From positions 1 to 6,707 of the forward strand of contig JACMRP010000079.1 of the NCBI GenBank assembly GCA_014376325.1: a stretch of DNA of 6,707 bases, read 5' to 3'. Origin of the DNA: Pseudobdellovibrionaceae bacterium. Its GTDB lineage: Bacteria; Bdellovibrionota; Bdellovibrionia; Bdellovibrionales; Bdellovibrionaceae. The notes beneath the pieces were generated by a model that saw nothing but the letters and a program-made list of their open reading frames with translations, was not told the DNA's origin and did no database searches. The position numbers and the translations under genes are program-made. Within the stretch, counting starts at the first letter, position 1. Every line of letters begins with the position of its first letter. Below, piece after piece: positions 1,064 through 6,707 of this stretch.

Positions 1064-2155
1064 ATGATGGTTCGTTCGAGAGTACACATTGCGTCCGCTA
1101 TTATTTTTGCAGCGGTTTCGGTTCGGTTTGCGGCGGCAGAAGCAAAAACTTACGTACTTAAAAAAGGCGAAACTTTAGCGAGCGTGGCCCGGAGCTACTA
1201 CGGTGAGCCCGTTTTTGGACCGAAGGGCAGCATTCTGAAAATCTACAAGCTGAACGCGTGGGCAAAAACCAATCCATCGCTCGTACAGCCCGGCCAAGAA
1301 GTGATCCTGGAAGATAAAGAAAATAAAACCGTTCAAGAATCCGTCGCCGCAATTCAAGCGGTTGCTGAAACGCACGCTCCGGCAGAAGCTCCGCCATTGC
1401 CACCCCCTCTAGTACCCCCGATCGAAGTCGCGCACGCACCGGCACTTCCACCGCCACCGCCTGCGGCGCCGGCATTACCACCGCACATGCCCGAACATCA
1501 TTTGCCGAACAGTTATTTCTCTATCATTCCGAGCTATTCGCAAATCAAACAGACCGCCACCGAAGATGCGAGTGGTGCAAGCTACAAGCTGGAATCTAGT
1601 TCAGCTTACGGATTAGAACTCGCGTGGGATCATTGGTGGAACCCGTCGTTTTCGACGATTTTTTCCTACAGCGGAACTCAGTTAAAATCCGATGCCGTCA
1701 ATGCGGTGAGCGGCGCTCCCGTTTTAGATACGACGACCCTATATCGAGGGGAAATTATTTTCCTGAACCGCATTTTGCCAAGCTTACGATTCGGATTCGG
1801 CGCAAGTTACGGAGATCATATATTTCTGGAAAACATTGGCGGCACTCCGGTGGATCCGCTGATCATCAAGAGCAGTTTCTGGAACCCGCTCGCCATGGCA
1901 GAATGGTCCGCTTATGAGGGTGAGCATTTTGAAGTTTTACTAAACGCGAAAGCGTCCGCATTGCCGGCACAATTAACGGTCTCCTCCCGCGGCCTTAAAA
2001 ATGGTATGGAGTACGTTGCGCAATTTTCACTGCTGCAAAAACTCGAGAGCGTCTCGATCCTTTATGGTGTTAGCTATTCCACGGACGATCAAAGCTTAAA
2101 GGCCGCAAGCGAAACCCGGACCGAAACCGCCGCAAAGATCGGTCTGTTGTTTTAG
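1064..2155 (+). CDS. Exported LysM domain protein with proline-rich linker and C-terminal outer-membrane beta-barrel
   Basis: The protein has 363 residues. GAGGAG at 1053-1058 precedes two adjacent ATGs (1064 and 1067) and either could be used. Residues 1-25 form a Sec signal ending RFAAA. Residues 28-82 are a LysM peptidoglycan-binding module (TYVLKKGETLASVARSYYG at its start, LVQPGQEVIL at its end). Residues 104-149 are an Ala/Pro-rich linker with several poly-Pro runs. Residues 150-363 alternate polar and hydrophobic residues, are rich in aromatics and Ser/Gly, and end IGLLF. A terminal Phe after alternating hydrophobics is the classic outer-membrane beta-barrel insertion signal. The inferred role is a barrel that tethers the outer membrane to the cell wall. 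I do not recognise a named family for the whole architecture. It is monocistronic as far as seen, and its TAG stop interlocks with the stop of the convergent methyltransferase gene. Confidence 0.8.
   Translation: MMVRSRVHIASAIIFAAVSVRFAAAEAKTYVLKKGETLASVARSYYGEPVFGPKGSILKIYKLNAWAKTNPSLVQPGQEVILEDKENKTVQESVAAIQAVAETHAPAEAPPLPPPLVPPIEVAHAPALPPPPPAAPALPPHMPEHHLPNSYFSIIPSYSQIKQTATEDASGASYKLESSSAYGLELAWDHWWNPSFSTIFSYSGTQLKSDAVNAVSGAPVLDTTTLYRGEIIFLNRILPSLRFGFGASYGDHIFLENIGGTPVDPLIIKSSFWNPLAMAEWSAYEGEHFEVLLNAKASALPAQLTVSSRGLKNGMEYVAQFSLLQKLESVSILYGVSYSTDDQSLKAASETRTETAAKIGLLF
2036..2057 (-). terminator. Candidate intrinsic terminator of the polyketide operon, inside the LysM gene
   Basis: On the minus strand a perfect 6-bp stem (TCGAGA at 2057-2052 and TCTCGA at 2048-2043) closes a 3-base loop. 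It is followed by one G and then five T residues (2041-2037). It lies about 95 bases beyond the methyltransferase stop codon. The stem is short and only half GC, so it may be modest in strength. No better terminator is visible nearer the stop. Confidence 0.4.
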
Positions 2156-2160
2156 TTATT
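2119..2160 (+). terminator. Possible weak plus-strand terminator at the end of the LysM gene
   Basis: GACCGA (2119-2124) and TCGGTC (2139-2144) form a perfect 6-bp inverted repeat with a 14-base loop. A T-rich stretch that contains the LysM stop codon follows (TGTTGTTTTAG, then TTATTTTT). The loop is large and the T-tract is interrupted, so this is only a weak candidate for ending the LysM transcript. Confidence 0.25.
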
Positions 2161-2889
2161 TTTGATAGCGTAGCCGATGTAGGATAATTTCAACGAAGGC
2201 GTCATTTCGAAGCGCAAACTTTCAGGAACGACGCCGGAAAAAATTTTGGACACCGGAATAGATCTAAAAACCGGTTTAATGCCGCTCATTTCTTGAACCT
2301 TGAGTCCCGCCTTTGCGCAGTACTCCGTTACTTCCGATGGTTTGATAAATAACCGCAAGACGTGCATGTGGCGGGGAGTATTTTTTACCAGCCATTCCAC
2401 CGCTTTGATAATCACCAAGTAGGCGAGCCAATTGCGATTGAAAGTGTGAAACACAAATATTCCGCCGGGCCGAAGAACCCGCGAAAATTCTTTGATAACG
2501 CCTTCAGGATCTTCCACGTGTTCCAAAAAATCCATCGCAGTCACGACGTCAAAACTTTGATCCGCGAAAGGCAAATGAAAGGCGTCGGCCGTGACGTAAC
2601 GGACATTGCCGGTGTGGTCGTGACGGTGGGCGGTTTCTAAACTGCTCTCGGACAAATCAACGCCGGTCACCCGGAAATTTTCGCGGGCAAGGGCGTTGCT
2701 CAAAAAGCCGGCGCCGCAGCCGACGTCCAACACTTCGCCATCGGGAAAGTGTTTTTTTAGTCTTTCGATAATCCACGGAGTTTTGACTTTGGATTCTGCC
2801 CGCAACAACGCGATCGGATCGTCAAAGGCCGTGTACCAGCGATCACCGTAAAGATCATAAATAGAATTGTCTACTTGGTTTTGACCCAT
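2152..2889 (-). CDS. UbiG-like class I SAM-dependent O-methyltransferase
   Basis: This 245-residue protein matches the usual length of UbiG (about 240). I chose the ATG at 2889-2887 because TGGAG lies six bases upstream, and because UbiG-like conserved sequence begins right after it. The frame stays open to 2982 but overlaps the preceding gene. SAM-binding motif I is VLDVGCGAG (53-61), with the acidic ribose-binding residue at Asp78. Motif II is FDVVTAMDFLEHVEDP (113-128) and motif III is VLRPGGIFVF (138-147). UbiG-specific features follow: TFNRN at 149-153, FIKPSE at 181-186, and a C-terminal YIGYAIKN. UbiG methylates ring hydroxyls of polyprenylated aromatics at the membrane. Here the gene is last in an operon with a type III polyketide synthase, so its substrate is more likely that pathway's phenolic lipid than ubiquinone. 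It overlaps the upstream membrane-protein gene by 19 bases. Confidence 0.88.
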   Translation of the reverse strand: MGQNQVDNSIYDLYGDRWYTAFDDPIALLRAESKVKTPWIIERLKKHFPDGEVLDVGCGAGFLSNALARENFRVTGVDLSESSLETAHRHDHTGNVRYVTADAFHLPFADQSFDVVTAMDFLEHVEDPEGVIKEFSRVLRPGGIFVFHTFNRNWLAYLVIIKAVEWLVKNTPRHMHVLRLFIKPSEVTEYCAKAGLKVQEMSGIKPVFRSIPVSKIFSGVVPESLRFEMTPSLKLSYIGYAIKNN

Positions 2890-3323
2890 CGGGGACTCCA
2901 ATACAAAATTTGGTAAATCAGAAATGCCGAAATCAAAGCGGTCTGCATCTGCAGCATCTCGATGCCAAAATTTCCGTGCCATAAAAAGCCGGCGCTAACG
3001 AAGGACAGCGGATGCAAAATAAATAAAACTGCGTGAAGCCAGCTTTCAGTTTTTGTGCAAATTTCTTGATGCACAAATTCGTCCTTGGTCACCAGCAAAC
3101 AAGAAACCGCGCAAAGCGCGATGTAGCCCACTAGCGCGGACTCCGAATACGGAACAAGTAAAACGAAGCCGAAACAGAGCAAAACCGACAGTGTGTCCAT
3201 CGGGTGCCCGATTCGCTCCCAGCGTGGCAGACCGCGTTTTCGATGAAAGTAAAACTCATCCACGGCAATCGCTAAGCCCTGCGCAACGAATGGAAAGTAC
3301 AAAAACAAATCAAATGATTTCAA
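2871..3323 (-). CDS. Small polytopic membrane protein with a duplicated Asp-Glu/His motif; function unknown
   Basis: The protein has 150 residues and belongs to no family I can name. About five membrane segments are visible (roughly residues 5-21, 43-59, 62-79, 97-115 and 121-142). Charged and histidine residues cluster at their edges. DEFYFH (22-27) and a GHP (39-41) reappear as DEFVH (81-85) and an LHP (103-105), suggesting an internal two-fold repeat that could bind metal. The start is TTG at 3323-3321, supported by GGAG (3333-3330) six bases upstream. No ATG is available near the N-terminus. The gene overlaps the polyketide synthase by 14 bases and the methyltransferase by 19, so the three are almost certainly co-translated. 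From context it may carry out a membrane step, such as ring oxidation or transport, on the polyketide lipid. That is inference. A purely structural role is also possible. Confidence 0.75.
   Translation of the reverse strand: MKSFDLFLYFPFVAQGLAIAVDEFYFHRKRGLPRWERIGHPMDTLSVLLCFGFVLLVPYSESALVGYIALCAVSCLLVTKDEFVHQEICTKTESWLHAVLFILHPLSFVSAGFLWHGNFGIEMLQMQTALISAFLIYQILYWSPRWVKTK
2896..2900 (-). promoter_or_regulatory. Ribosome binding site that decides the start of the methyltransferase gene
   Basis: TGGAG on the minus strand, six bases before the ATG at 2889. It is embedded in the final codons of the membrane-protein gene. It argues against the longer frame that opens at 2982. Confidence 0.6.
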
Positions 3324-4431
3324 ACAAGGCTCCGAACATCGTCAGTCCCGGACCGAAAGCAAGGCTCACGACCTTCGTGCCCGATTTCGGATTTGATTCC
3401 AAAATTTCTTTCCAAATATGAGGAAGGGTTGCGGAAGACATATTCCCACGTTCGCGTAAGATCTTTTGGCTGACCGAAACTTGCTCGTGAGAGAGCTCTA
3501 AAGTCTCCCGTACCGAATCGATAATTTTTGGCCCACCCGGATGGACCGCGAAGGTAGAATTTTTTAATAATTCAGAAACATTTTGACCGCTGTCTTGCGC
3601 AAGCTTTTGAATAAACGGCCTTAAGTGGGCCGCGATCTTCGCTGGAACCTCGCGGGAAAGCGTCATCTGCATTCCCCAAGGGGCGGGCACCCAGCTCATA
3701 TCGTCTGAGGAATCGGGCAAGATCCACTCTTGAAATTTTAGCATCCGAAAACCAGATTTAGCTTTGCTTTCGCTGACTGCAGAGTACTTGACGTGACCAT
3801 CGGCGAAAAGACTCTGTACGACCATTTGTTCCGGAGTGTGATTTGCGGGATTCATGTGCAGGCTGCACATTTCGGTATGAACGATATCCACGCGCGTATT
3901 TTGATCACCCGTATTCGCAAAGGCCAGCGCCATCCGTGAAGCGGGCAGGGCCGCATAACATCCCATATGGTAAGCGTGAGTCACCGCGGTTTGCTGACTC
4001 CAATCACGCGCACGCATTTGGGCGGCACTCGGTGCCACGTAGCCCGTGCACGTCACGTGAATCAAATGGTCGGGGGCCGCGATCGCTGCTGGATAAAATT
4101 CGGCAAAGATTTGGTTTGCTCGGTGCTGAAAAAACTGGGCTCGCTGGTCAATGCCAGCGCCTTCTGGGTGTGATTCGCTGTGCTGGTACATCAGTTGATT
4201 TCTTAAGCTTTCGTCGACGACGGAGGGTGAATGAAGAGCGTCGACACATTCGAAGTACCGTTCGTTGATCTTCTCCGAAGGGACCGCGTACCGGTGAAAT
4301 ATTTTTTCGAAGCGCTGTCCGTCGATGAGCCCGTGGCGCTGAGCACTCCATTCAATCAGGCTTGCTTGATCGAGGTGGTGGAGGGGAAGAATCGTCTGAA
4401 AATCGGTCAAGACCACTGGATTTGGATTCAT
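3310..4431 (-). CDS. Type III polyketide synthase (chalcone/stilbene synthase superfamily)
   Basis: This 373-residue protein has the usual length of bacterial type III synthases. These homodimers condense a CoA- or carrier-linked starter, often a long fatty acyl, with malonyl-CoA into resorcinols, pyrones or related rings. All three catalytic residues are visible: Cys158 in HMGCYAALPA, His297 in FAVHPGGPKII, and Asn330 in RERGNMSSATLP. Further family signs are HVTCTGYVAPSAAQ (125-138), VDIVHTEMCSLH (181-192) and the C-terminal loop AFGPGLTMFG, which has Ala where plant enzymes have the first Gly of GFGPG. The ATG at 4431 is the only ATG after an in-frame TAG ten bases upstream. It lacks a clear ribosome site, since a GGAG lies more than 20 bases away. 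It is first in an operon with a membrane protein and a UbiG-like methyltransferase, pointing to an alkylresorcinol, alkylpyrone or phenolic-lipid product. The starter unit cannot be read from the sequence. Confidence 0.92.
   Translation of the reverse strand: MNPNPVVLTDFQTILPLHHLDQASLIEWSAQRHGLIDGQRFEKIFHRYAVPSEKINERYFECVDALHSPSVVDESLRNQLMYQHSESHPEGAGIDQRAQFFQHRANQIFAEFYPAAIAAPDHLIHVTCTGYVAPSAAQMRARDWSQQTAVTHAYHMGCYAALPASRMALAFANTGDQNTRVDIVHTEMCSLHMNPANHTPEQMVVQSLFADGHVKYSAVSESKAKSGFRMLKFQEWILPDSSDDMSWVPAPWGMQMTLSREVPAKIAAHLRPFIQKLAQDSGQNVSELLKNSTFAVHPGGPKIIDSVRETLELSHEQVSVSQKILRERGNMSSATLPHIWKEILESNPKSGTKVVSLAFGPGLTMFGALFEII
3330..3333 (-). promoter_or_regulatory. Ribosome binding site that decides the TTG start of the membrane-protein gene
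   Basis: GGAG on the minus strand, six bases before the TTG at 3323. It lies inside the last codons of the polyketide synthase gene. It supports a non-ATG start and tight translational coupling between the two genes. Confidence 0.55.
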
Positions 4432-4640: not shown

Positions 4641-5864
4641 TTGCAGGACGCAACTACGATAAAGGCATTGAAAAATAAAAACCCGCTTATCGTATTTTTG
4701 GTGACCCTGACGCTGCTGCTATTTTATCTGGAGCGGCCCGCGCGGCAGGTCTATGATGAAAAATTCTACGTACCAGCGGCGATGGATATATTGCACGCGC
4801 GGCCCGATCCGAATTATCAGCATCCACCAGTCGCTAAAGAAATCATCGCCATCGGAATCGGCAGCTTTGGCGACGGTCCGCTCGGATGGCGGATCGGTAG
4901 CGCCGTCATGGGAGCAGCAACCCTGACTTCGTTGTACCTCATGGCTTTGTTTTTTTTCGAATCTTCCATGCTGGCTTTACTGACGATCCTTTTGATTTTT
5001 GCGAATGGATTGTTCTACCCCCTGTCCAGACTGGCTTTTCTGGACATATACAGCTTTGGCTTTTCGGTATTTGGGATCACGACGGTCCTTTACCTGTTGC
5101 GCGGTAAGATGCACGCACGAACAAACGCGATCCTGGGTGCTGCGGGTCTGTTTTTTGGTTTGGCGATGGCATCGAAGTGGTCAGCGATTGTGCTTTTCGG
5201 AATTGCGGTCGCGGCTATGCTGCATTCGAAGCGCTTCGGTGCGCGAAACTGGCTGTCTTTTATGACGGCAGCGTTAGCTTATTATTTTTTGCCGTTTTTC
5301 TTCTTAACCAATATGCACTGGGCGGATTTGCAAAGTATTTTTCAGCTGCAGTTTTCGATGTGGGACTTTCATCATCCCGCGGTTATGTCAGCGGAGTTAT
5401 CTTTAGAGAACACTTCTGCCTGGTGGCAGTGGCCCATGCGTTTGCAACCAATGTGGCTTGCGGTATTTCCGCCGGATAATCGGGACGCGACAAAGTTTTT
5501 AACCGTGGTCCTATTCGGAAACCCGTTTGTACTGATCGCCGGAATAGCGGCCCTGATTGCGGGAGAGTTTAAAAAGTCCTGGCAATTTTTGTGGATATTA
5601 GCACTGTGTCTTATGCCCTGGTTATTTTGGGCCGTTCAGGCAAGGCCCGTCACTTATTATACTTACTATTTACCGACGTCGGTGTTTTTAAGTTTTGCCA
5701 TCGTGTACCGACTGAAAACAAAAAAAACGGCCCTCAAAGTTTTGACGGCCGTTGCGATGATCTGGTTTATATGCCATTGGCCCCTGATGTCGGGGATGGA
5801 AATGAGCGAGTCGCATTTCCGCACCTTCTACCCCCATGTGCAAATGTGGGGGGAAGTGAACTAA
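4641..5864 (+). CDS. GT39 (protein O-mannosyltransferase-like) membrane glycosyltransferase
   Basis: This 407-residue polytopic protein should transfer a sugar from a polyprenyl-phosphate donor at the periplasmic face of the inner membrane. An acidic pair, Asp39-Glu40 in QVYDEKFYV, follows the first membrane segment, as in the PMT/ArnT superfamily, where this loop is catalytic. QHPPVAKE (60-67), SRLAFLD (129-135) and GLAMASKWSA (173-182) are further PMT signatures. The C-terminal part has WWQWPMRLQPMWL (261-273), FGNPF (292-296) and ARPVTYYTYYLP (334-345), typical of the four-helix C-terminal region of bacterial PMTs. It is shorter than actinobacterial PMTs (about 500 residues). No MIR domain is seen. 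The start is uncertain: an in-frame TGA at 4632 limits it, TTG 4641 and TTG 4668 both lack good ribosome sites, and the first internal ATG would delete the Asp-Glu motif. The acceptor is unknown. Confidence 0.85.
   Translation: MQDATTIKALKNKNPLIVFLVTLTLLLFYLERPARQVYDEKFYVPAAMDILHARPDPNYQHPPVAKEIIAIGIGSFGDGPLGWRIGSAVMGAATLTSLYLMALFFFESSMLALLTILLIFANGLFYPLSRLAFLDIYSFGFSVFGITTVLYLLRGKMHARTNAILGAAGLFFGLAMASKWSAIVLFGIAVAAMLHSKRFGARNWLSFMTAALAYYFLPFFFLTNMHWADLQSIFQLQFSMWDFHHPAVMSAELSLENTSAWWQWPMRLQPMWLAVFPPDNRDATKFLTVVLFGNPFVLIAGIAALIAGEFKKSWQFLWILALCLMPWLFWAVQARPVTYYTYYLPTSVFLSFAIVYRLKTKKTALKVLTAVAMIWFICHWPLMSGMEMSESHFRTFYPHVQMWGEVN
5715..5753 (-). terminator. Intrinsic terminator of the DEAD-box helicase gene, inside the GT39 gene
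   Basis: On the minus strand AACGGCC (5753-5747) and GGCCGTT (5732-5726) form a perfect 7-bp GC-rich stem. One mismatch follows, then a further inner stem (TCAA/TTGA) around a four-base loop. The 3' side runs straight into eight T residues (5727-5720), then G and four more T. This is a textbook rho-independent terminator for leftward transcription, about 110 bases beyond the helicase stop. It lies within codons for the Lys/Thr-rich loop near residue 360 of the glycosyltransferase. Confidence 0.75.
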
Positions 5865-6707
5865 GCCCGCTGAAATCCCAGCTTCTTCGCTTTTTTCTTT
5901 TTAACGGCCGAGTGTTTTCGTCCGGGCAAAGTCGGTGACGCTTTTGTCGCCGCCGTCGTGCGCATTTCGCCTTTGTTCGGATCCACCTTCGGCGTCTTCG
6001 CGTTGAGCTGACTGATCAGACGTTGATCACGTTCGGTGACCAGATTAATGACCACGCCCGGTTTGCCGGCACGTGCCGTTCGACCAGCACGGTGAAGGTA
6101 GTTCACCATCTGTCGTGGTAAGTGGAAATTCACCACGCGACCCACGTGTTCTAGATCCAGACCACGGGCCGCTAGATCGGTCGACACCAGGATATCAATT
6201 TTGCCTTCGCGGAATTTTTTAAGATTCGCCCGACGATCATTTTTGTCCATCTCCCCGCGGTAAACGGCGCAATTGTAACCCTTTTCAACAATTTCTTTCG
6301 CGAGCTTGTCGCACTGTTCGCGCGTATTCACAAAAACCAAAGTGCCACCCGCGATCGGCTTCGCCAAGATCGTTTCGAAAACTTCCCAGCGGACTCCGTC
6401 TTTGACGGTTCGGTTGTGCGTTGTTAATGAAGTCACGGTCTTGCCGGCACCGGACGTGCGGATCACTTCTGCGGAAGTGAATTGCATGTTAATTAGATCT
6501 TGAACCGATGCCGATAAGGTCGCCGTAAACATCGCCATCTGAACGTCTTTCGGACAGGCGCTCGTGATGGTGTCAGAGTCCGGCAAAAATCCTTGATCGA
6601 GCATTTCGTCAGCCTCGTCAAAGATCAGCATGCGAACATCGCTCATATTCAGTAAATCTTTTTGCAGTAACTGAAGCAATCGACCAGGAGTTGCCAACAG
6701 TATTTCA
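5861..6707 (-). CDS. DEAD-box ATP-dependent RNA helicase, C-terminal part (5' end beyond the window)
   Basis: About 281 codons are visible and the frame is open through the window edge, where the coding sequence reads EILLATPGRL. The N-terminal Q-motif, Walker A and PTREL segments therefore lie outside. Visible motifs in order are TPGR (Ib), FDEADEMLD (motif II, Asp-Glu-Ala-Asp), FTATLS (motif III, usually SAT), TLVFVNT (IV), ILVSTDLAARGLD (V) and HRAGRTARAG (VI). A short lysine-rich tail (AVKKKKAKKLG) ends the protein. Such enzymes use ATP to remodel RNA in ribosome assembly or mRNA decay. The tail is too short and generic to tell RhlE-, RhlB- or SrmB-like roles apart. The TAG stop interlocks over four bases with the TAA of the convergent glycosyltransferase gene, and its terminator lies inside that gene. 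Confidence 0.93.
   Translation of the reverse strand, partial: EILLATPGRLLQLLQKDLLNMSDVRMLIFDEADEMLDQGFLPDSDTITSACPKDVQMAMFTATLSASVQDLINMQFTSAEVIRTSGAGKTVTSLTTHNRTVKDGVRWEVFETILAKPIAGGTLVFVNTREQCDKLAKEIVEKGYNCAVYRGEMDKNDRRANLKKFREGKIDILVSTDLAARGLDLEHVGRVVNFHLPRQMVNYLHRAGRTARAGKPGVVINLVTERDQRLISQLNAKTPKVDPNKGEMRTTAATKASPTLPGRKHSAVKKKKAKKLGFQRA

Follow-up and report, generated by a model that had tools for sequence, protein, structure and literature searches.

A stretch of 6,707 nucleotides from a Pseudobdellovibrionaceae bacterium (assembly GCA_014376325.1, contig JACMRP010000079.1; hereafter the window) contains three overlapping genes, which encode a type III polyketide synthase (PKS), a small membrane protein and a methyltransferase (MT). 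The question raised by this locus is what the three proteins could make together and which step is performed by the membrane protein.

Organization of the unit and its two recognizable enzymes

All three genes are located on the reverse strand. The first gene (positions 3310–4431) encodes an ArsB/ArsC-like PKS of 373 aa, the second one (2871–3323, TTG start) encodes the undescribed membrane protein of 150 aa, and the third one (2152–2889) encodes a UbiG-like SAM-dependent MT of 245 aa, counted from the ATG at 2889; an alternative earlier ATG is present at 2982 in the ORF listing. The preliminary description of the locus had reported gene overlaps of 14 bases (PKS and membrane gene) and 19 bases (membrane gene and MT), and the open reading frames agree with this. 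The GGAG-type sites that it assigned to both downstream starts were also found, each within the preceding gene: at 3330–3333 (ctcc on the forward strand), 6 nt before the TTG, and at 2896–2899 (ctcc on the forward strand), 6 nt before the ATG. No GGAG-type site was seen at the PKS start.

The family assignments of the preliminary description were borne out as well. The PKS scored 73 bits with PF02797 (Chal_sti_synt_C; cut-off 27) and 25.8 bits with PF00195, just below the cut-off of 27, and its best matches in the PDB were 3vs9 (231 bits) and 3vs8 (225 bits), followed by a match of 77 bits. The Cys158-His297-Asn330 triad described earlier is intact in this chalcone-synthase-type protein, as is expected of a type III PKS. 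In an alignment of 199 homologues, Cys158 (codon at 3958–3960) and His297 (3541–3543) are kept in all sequences, and Asn330 (3442–3444) in 198, with one gap. Trp247 (3691–3693), which is Trp in 199/199 homologues, aligns with Gly of 3vs8 and Trp of 3vs9 (ArsC position 284 and ArsB Trp281, respectively). According to the part of the literature consulted, Trp at this position is tied to alkylresorcinol synthesis by ArsB (PMC6274091). The PKS of the window, with W247 at the ArsB 281 position, thus looks like an alkylresorcinol synthase.

The MT scored 146.9 bits with TIGR01983 (cut-off 102.95), which places it in the UbiG family, and matched PDB entry 4kdc at 104.7 bits. The possibility that such an MT serves ubiquinone synthesis, which the preliminary description named as a finding that would speak against its proposal, appears unlikely, because none of 36 genomes of relatives with the cassette contained a UbiH-type hydroxylase above the cut-off and each of them contained exactly one UbiG-like protein above the cut-off.

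The membrane protein and its invariant residues

In contrast to its neighbors, the membrane protein could not be assigned to any Pfam or NCBIfam family, and nothing was found in Pfam at an E-value of 0.1; the preliminary description had likewise left it unrecognised. A PDB search with the profile of the protein gave zero matches, that is, no clear relative of known structure. The only weak Pfam match of the window protein was EBP (E-value 0.25). Membership in EXPERA/EBP (PF05241), a family of membrane isomerases, was rejected since the window protein reached 12.1 bits against a cut-off of 25.7. Fatty acid hydroxylases, desaturases, COQ7 and AOX were absent among the 25 listed of 36 weak Pfam families obtained in a scan of 102 members, and no clear likeness to known oxygenases was seen by sequence or fold. 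The membrane protein is a member of an undescribed protein family, located within a known kind of operon.

A search for homologues of the 150-aa protein revealed 1419 sequences. Five long helices were predicted, and the AlphaFold2 model had a pLDDT of 94.7. The 102-row alignment (A2) contains twelve invariant Asp/Glu/His residues, among which the spacings E-x2-H and E-x3-H occur. The invariant positions are concentrated in two segments, namely residues 22–43 (3195–3260; D22, E23, H27, R30, W35, E36, G39, H40, P41 and D43) and residues 79–105 (3009–3089; T79, K80, D81, E82, H85, E93, L96, H97, L100, F101 and H104); C89, W95 and P105 are found in at least 90% of the rows. The side of the protein that carries the Asp/Glu/His residues has 6.28 Lys and Arg per protein (29 positions) versus 0.5 on the opposite side (17 positions), and we place the invariant residues on what is probably the cytoplasmic side. 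A bias of conservation toward one helix face was detected in three of the six helices tested (p = 0.0005, 0.036 and 0.002) and was not found in the other three. No duplication between the two helix pairs was detectable. A subfamily that does not adjoin a PKS retains most of the acidic residues, so that these residues alone do not indicate a resorcinol substrate.

Distribution of the unit and the exchange with a flavin enzyme

Loci of relatives were collected through the membrane protein, and the order PKS–membrane protein–MT was complete in 76 of 80 of them. The three families are therefore neighbors in relatives, contrary to the other outcome that the preliminary description had considered damaging. 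Since the same order recurs across phyla, the arrangement is not due to chance. PKS and MT genes without an intact membrane gene alongside were found in loci L106, L111 and L114, and one partner each was missing from the expected place in L008 and L063. The membrane protein was fused to the MT in five genomes (L067, L060, L148, L162 and L123).

The membrane gene and its PKS class occur almost only together in both Bdellovibrionota and Chlamydiota. In counts that ignore kinship, 71 of 290 Bdellovibrionota genomes contained both genes, two the membrane gene only and three the PKS only; for 190 Chlamydiota genomes, the corresponding numbers, also without regard to kinship, were 53, two and one. 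The linkage of the MT is looser. The main membrane type was present in 73 Bdellovibrionota genomes. The complete order was found in 49 of them, and no MT adjoined the PKS–membrane protein pair in 19, in one of which (G160) the contig ends soon after the pair. A UbiG-like MT above the cut-off was encoded elsewhere in 17 of these 19 genomes. In this respect, the preliminary description has to be amended: the MT does not always adjoin the other two genes. Of the 55 Chlamydiota genomes that carry the membrane gene, 54 have a terminal oxidase (none was found in the remaining one, G375), versus 116 of the 135 that lack the gene.

Chlamydiota also carry a second operon of this kind. It resembles the unit of the window in having a type III PKS and a similar size, and the PKS has the same Trp in 10/10 cases; it differs in that the PKS belongs to another subclass, the MT is a different one, and an FAD-dependent protein is present instead of the membrane protein. 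The FAD oxidoreductase was found in all 23 genomes with the second PKS class, none of which encodes the membrane protein, and genes for PKS, MT and FAD protein were contiguous in eight of ten loci inspected. The FAD protein was matched in 24 genomes, none of them among the 55 with the membrane protein, so the two never occurred together in the 190 Chlamydiota genomes. As the two types did not share a genome in this phylum, we suggest that the membrane protein does the job of the flavin enzyme. The earlier suggestion that it replaces or adds a step is strengthened by its location, as it occupies the place of the oxidoreductase in related operons.

Proposed pathway, alternatives and known systems

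Taken together, the data suggest that the three enzymes make a modified alkylresorcinol membrane lipid by means of the PKS, a membrane di-metal hydroxylase and the MT, and on the sequence evidence we give this reading a probability of about one half. It is very probable that the PKS would join a long fatty acyl-CoA or acyl-ACP with three malonyl units and close the ring to form a 5-alkylresorcinol. With moderate confidence, the membrane protein could then act on the membrane-held resorcinol through the invariant Asp/Glu/His residues of its cytoplasmic face; it would most likely be a di-metal, probably diiron, hydroxylase that uses O2 and replaces the FAD oxidoreductase of the HidB/SrsC type, and the ring would probably be hydroxylated before the MT methylates it. 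The UbiG-like MT would, with fairly good confidence, methylate a phenolic OH to give a methoxy-alkylphenol or -quinol, which may serve the cell as a membrane or redox lipid. The compact pathway to a methylated phenolic lipid assumed in the preliminary description agrees with the neighborhood of the genes, the alkylresorcinol-type PKS and the membrane protein at the oxidoreductase position; the product itself is at the level of a proposal. Note that hydroxylation by the flavin enzyme is itself weakly grounded, since the passages of PMC10896814 on co-expression of the planctomycete MT and oxidoreductase list methylated but no hydroxylated alkylresorcinols.

The invariant polar residues suggest some catalysis, which need not be oxygenation: the membrane protein could be a metal hydrolase-like enzyme, or an aromatase, decarboxylase or isomerase whose substrate is the tetraketide or the resorcylate. 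PF05241 was indeed touched by three of the 102 members (best E-value 0.016), but the window protein itself scores well below the cut-off, other type III PKSs are described in the sources consulted in part as making the resorcinol ring unaided (PMC6274091, PMC10896814), and the two operon types, never found in one genome, differ in exactly the membrane protein versus the FAD oxidoreductase. We consider this reading unlikely. Slightly less probable still is a role as an anchor, channel or flippase, in which the protein would bring the PKS and MT together at the membrane or move the lipid and would have no chemistry of its own. The five long helices, the fusions to the MT and the presence of the membrane protein almost wherever its PKS class occurs would fit such a role; however, an anchor would not need as many as twelve invariant Asp/Glu/His residues on a single side, E-x2-H and E-x3-H spacings among them, and in the 19 genomes that lack an adjacent MT the PKS still has the membrane gene next to it.

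Acyl chains are the substrates of most integral-membrane diiron enzymes known so far, and the membrane protein could accordingly desaturate or hydroxylate the acyl tail, with the MT methylating the plain resorcinol. This appears improbable, as the protein does not have the pattern of eight or more His of that superfamily, no such family was among the 25 listed of the 36 weak Pfam matches of the 102 members, and the enzyme being replaced seems to have ring-acting relatives. Least probable is a pyrone or a ubiquinone-related product. Some type III PKSs make pyrones, as stated in the part of PMC6274091 consulted, and the MT is of UbiG type, but Trp247 is as in ArsB and not Gly as in ArsC, and the lack of UbiH-type hydroxylases above the cut-off in the 36 cassette genomes also argues against it.

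We return to the di-metal hydroxylase reading. A bolder version, which we regard as tentative and less likely than not, is that the 150-aa protein is the founding member of a new family of small integral-membrane di-metal aromatic hydroxylases with five long helices, unrelated to known oxygenases, that replace the flavin hydroxylase in predatory bacteria, environmental chlamydiae, myxobacteria and others, the product being an undescribed methoxylated alkyl-quinol lipid even in the well-studied Bdellovibrio. If the protein is an oxygenase, it would hydroxylate the ring within the membrane in a novel way. A family of 1419 homologues with no assigned function gains a defined set of partners and a testable reaction, and the clean exchange with the flavin enzyme inside a single phylum offers a direct way of testing the question. 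The distribution suggests that a quarter of the sampled Bdellovibrionota (73/290) and more than a quarter of the sampled Chlamydiota (55/190) are makers of phenolic lipids. Type III PKS clusters were reported for B. bacteriovorus LR3 (PMC12843806) and for chlamydiae (PMC9666466, PMC13229535), and the passages concerned do not name the products.

A comparison with known systems indicated several partial likenesses. In Bacillus subtilis BpsA-BpsB, a type III PKS also adjoins a small membrane protein; BpsB is a membrane methyltransferase, whereas the window has a separate UbiG-like MT and a membrane protein that falls into none of the families of Pfam or NCBIfam. Ubiquinone synthesis by COQ7/UbiF and then UbiG follows the same logic of ring hydroxylation and subsequent O-methylation, and COQ7 is a membrane-bound diiron protein; however, it is not among the weak families listed for the membrane protein, and its UbiH-type partners are absent, at the cut-off, from 36/36 genomes. 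The srsABC cluster of Streptomyces griseus includes an MT and gives a methylated product; SrsC is a flavoprotein, unlike the membrane protein of the window, and to our knowledge the cluster has no membrane protein of this family. Like the unit of the window, it is built around a PKS; it has a stand-alone hydroxylase and, according to the part of PMC8086630 consulted, yields alkylresorcinols. ArsB and ArsC of Azotobacter vinelandii are the closest PKSs of known structure, ArsB having the same Trp at the ring-closure position as the PKS of the window, and differ in that acyl chains are described as available from the fatty acid synthase ArsA (PMC6274091, consulted in part), for which the window has no gene. 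In hidABC of cyanobacteria (hierridin B) and in the planctomycete MT–oxidoreductase–PKS operons, the gene order is different and the third protein is an oxidoreductase, which is FAD-dependent in Gimesia maris (PMC10896814, in part), whereas the MT of the window is UbiG-like and its third member has no FAD domain by Pfam and NCBIfam. The planctomycete PKSs make alkylresorcinols, as stated in the same part of that source, and both systems combine, as the window does, a type III PKS and an MT in one small operon with a third tailoring protein (PMC10896814, PMC8086630, both in part).

Gene layout and the expected synthase product

The unit is located on the minus strand of the window and contains genes encoding a type III polyketide synthase (PKS; 3310–4431, 373 aa), a membrane protein (2871–3323, 150 aa, TTG start) and a UbiG-like methyltransferase (MT; 2152–2889, 245 aa), the coordinates in the preliminary description being correct. 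The genes overlap by 14 and 19 bases, and GGAG was found 6 nt ahead of the membrane gene and MT starts, in each case within the preceding gene. A convergent gene on the opposite strand (1064–2155, plus), the stop codon of which overlaps that of MT, encodes a LysM-like N-terminus (20.0 bits; cut-off 20.9) followed by a proline-rich linker and perhaps by an outer-membrane barrel. The other neighbours encode an RND-type periplasmic adaptor (11–943, minus; TIGR01730 over cut-off), a PMT_2-type glycosyltransferase (4641–5864, plus; 34.3 bits, cut-off 26.1) and, by motif, a DEAD-box helicase (5861–6706, minus).

The PKS was attributed to the chalcone/stilbene-like synthase group (Pfam, NCBIfam). The intact catalytic triad already described for it was confirmed, and its residues are kept in 199, 199 and 198 (one gap) of 199 aligned homologues (79 from the loci and the window, 120 from a protein search). 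The nearest solved structures are 3vs9 (231 bits) and 3vs8 (225 bits), the next match reaching 77 bits. In PMC6274091, 3VS8 is identified as ArsC of Azotobacter vinelandii and 3VS9 as the G284W mutant of this enzyme; an important role in the choice between alkylresorcinol and alkylpyrone is ascribed there to ArsB Trp281 versus ArsC Gly284. W247 of the window PKS occupies the ArsB Trp281 position, and Trp is found there in 199/199 homologues. The Trp at the ring-closure position and the conserved triad allow us to expect, from the sequence, an alkylresorcinol as the PKS product; an alkylresorcinol-derived lipid is the most likely predicted product of the operon. By contrast, Tyr replaces this Trp in a PKS of this class that stands alone at locus L107 (2581–3702), with neither a membrane protein nor an MT.

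Conservation of the three-gene unit

The three-gene operon is real and widely conserved. Genome contigs were scanned with the membrane-protein alignment and the best 80 of 155 stretches encoding a relative were taken; PKS, membrane protein and MT genes follow in this order in 76 of these 80 loci. The contig ends after the membrane gene in L009 and L031, no MT was found within 2.7 kb downstream in L063, and L008 contains the membrane gene and MT with no PKS in the 436 bases preceding them. By record label, the 80 loci belong to Bdellovibrionota, Chlamydiota, Myxococcota, Acidobacteriota, Verrucomicrobia and one Proteobacterium. Several of the labels Verrucomicrobia and Acidobacteria are doubtful, since the records concerned group with Chlamydiota in the tree and also turn up in the genome sample of that phylum (G011, G013, G017, G023).

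Because these loci were selected via the membrane gene, samples of 290 Bdellovibrionota and 190 Chlamydiota genomes were added and searched over the best candidates per genome. Among the Bdellovibrionota, the main membrane type was found in 73 genomes, the main PKS class in 74 and both in 71; 16 more genomes with only weaker membrane matches (56–80 bits) were excluded from the 73. In the membrane-only genomes (G276, G155) the gene lies at the contig start or at most 155 bases from it, and the PKS-only genomes are G171, G284 and G132; in G132 a fragment of the membrane gene separates PKS from MT. The three genes are contiguous in 49 of the 73 genomes (17 from the 80-locus set, 32 from the phylum sample), 19 have PKS and membrane protein only, four have membrane protein and MT (three near contig ends; G273 with the PKS elsewhere) and one (G165) has a solitary membrane gene with PKS-MT elsewhere. 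The Chlamydiota counts were 55 (membrane gene), 54 (PKS class) and 53 (both). The membrane gene lies near the contig start in G423 and in G472, where a cut PKS adjoins it; in G398 its pieces are split over two contigs. Chlamydial loci fetched around full-length matches contained the three genes in 13 cases, and the fourteenth (G435) ends at the contig end. Fisher p-values for membrane gene–PKS co-occurrence, which ignore kinship, were 2e-61 (Bdellovibrionota) and 2e-43 (Chlamydiota). The distances of the three proteins correlate over 76 sets (Mantel r 0.66, 0.59 and 0.78; 0/999 permutations as high), and in the joint tree the window forms a group (support 99) with 20 rows from Bdellovibrionota, in which no further phylum is represented by a label; the source of the window would thus belong to Bdellovibrionota.

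PKS and membrane protein form a tighter pair than the pairings with MT, since an adjacent MT is missing in 19 Bdellovibrionota genomes. Eleven of these 19 loci lie on contigs longer than 3.3 Mb; a UbiG-like protein over the cut-off is encoded elsewhere in 17 of the genomes and was not found elsewhere in G281 and G160, the G160 locus stopping 196 bases past the membrane gene. Membrane protein and MT share one reading frame in five genomes (L067, L060, L148, L162, L123).

Other arrangements were also observed. At L106 (5583–8348), the membrane gene is absent and the PKS and MT genes precede one for a UbiA-type prenyltransferase (60.5 bits; cut-off 34.2); the product is possibly a prenylated alkylresorcinol. 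At L108 (6701–9947), the PKS gene lies apart from its membrane protein–MT pair and is convergent with a gene resembling, by eye, a cytochrome P450-reductase fusion. In 21 of the 80 loci, MT is followed on its own strand by a gene that by eye resembles a thiol peroxidase; its matched part begins at most 25 bases from the MT end in L008, L011, L012, L013, L017, L026, L035, L040, L054 and L056, which hints at a link between peroxide stress and the predicted lipid.

The preliminary description had also considered a lipoquinone-like product. Exactly one protein passed the UbiG cut-off in each of 36 cassette genomes, and it adjoins the membrane gene in the 26 checked by coordinates. UbiH-type hydroxylases over the cut-off were found in 0/36 cassette genomes versus 3/14 control genomes, and this comparison of UbiG- and UbiH-type genes makes a ubiquinone role for the unit unlikely.

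The membrane protein as a putative ring hydroxylase

The membrane protein had no match in Pfam or NCBIfam, and none in PDB when used as a profile; as a single sequence it matched two PDB chains only (E 0.036 and 0.32). A database search gave 1419 homologues, and the 120 of them that were listed contained no Pfam domains. One database protein of the family (P0080) bears the source name 'phosphatidylserine synthase', for which no support was found here. In an alignment of 102 rows, drawn from 51 database proteins and 51 loci, 23 columns are invariant, and 12 of these are Asp, Glu or His (D22, E23, H27, E36, H40, D43, D81, E82, H85, E93, H97, H104). Modeling using AlphaFold2 (pLDDT 94.7, pTM 0.89) gave, with high confidence, five long and two short helices, and by helix order the invariant D/E/H residues would lie on one membrane side. 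This side is predicted to be cytoplasmic, since it carries 6.28 Lys+Arg per protein (29 positions) versus 0.5 on the opposite side (17 positions). Of six helices, three showed conservation that favours one face (p 0.0005, 0.036, 0.002) and the other three did not (p 0.15, 0.21, 0.68); no duplication between helix pairs was detectable.

The E-x3-H, E-x3-H, E-x2-H and E-x3-H spacings resemble, at the level of sequence, a di-metal carboxylate site, and the best reading of the protein is a putative di-metal ring hydroxylase, at about even odds. One of the observations against this reading is that most acidic residues are conserved in a distant subfamily of the protein unlinked to this PKS class (17 loci, L086–L102), where D22, E36, D43, E82, E93 and H97 are kept in 17/17, H104 in 16/17, H27 in 5/17, H85 in 2/17 and H40 in 1/17. 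In addition, PKS-MT loci without an intact neighbouring membrane gene exist (L106, L111 in G165 and L114 in G132). Among the Chlamydiota, a COX1 or cytochrome bd gene was found in 54 of the 55 genomes that carry the membrane gene (G375 being the sole exception) versus 116 of the 135 that lack it (Fisher p 0.009), a pattern that weakly fits an O2-using enzyme, genome incompleteness and kinship being uncontrolled.

A flavin protein as the alternative third member

A second PKS class (160–190 bits with the same PKS model) was found in 23 further Chlamydiota genomes, the G472 PKS (182 bits, cut at the contig end beside the membrane gene) being excluded. The ring-closure Trp cannot separate the two classes, since the second also has it (10/10). 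In 8 of 10 fetched loci, genes for a different MT and an FAD-dependent oxidoreductase come after the second-class PKS. The oxidoreductase was identified by a Pfam scan on four of the eight, and its nearest NCBIfam model is the geranylgeranyl reductase family, below cut-off. The PKS of L197 and L199 lacks MT-FAD neighbours, and the FAD gene is elsewhere in both genomes. A search of the 190 Chlamydiota (E 1e-20, at most 10 candidates per genome) matched the FAD protein in 24, namely all 23 second-class genomes and G466; it gave no match in any of the 55 genomes that carry the membrane protein, and the membrane protein was absent from the candidates of all 23 second-class genomes. A PKS-MT-FAD kind of set was also found in one Bdellovibrionota genome (G227, L120).

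Since the two proteins were not found together in any of these Chlamydiota genomes, the set of PKS, MT and a third member exists in two forms, the third being the FAD protein in one and the membrane protein in the other. This swap is the best evidence for oxidative tailoring by the membrane protein, although it is limited, because the reaction of the flavin protein is only putative here and the co-expression passages of PMC10896814 list methylated products and no hydroxylated ones. The PKS-MT-tailoring layout is already known: as outlined in PMC8086630 and PMC10896814, it is that of the cyanobacterial hierridin B operon hidABC and of a planctomycete MT-oxidoreductase-PKS operon, and the variant described here centres on an undescribed membrane protein family.
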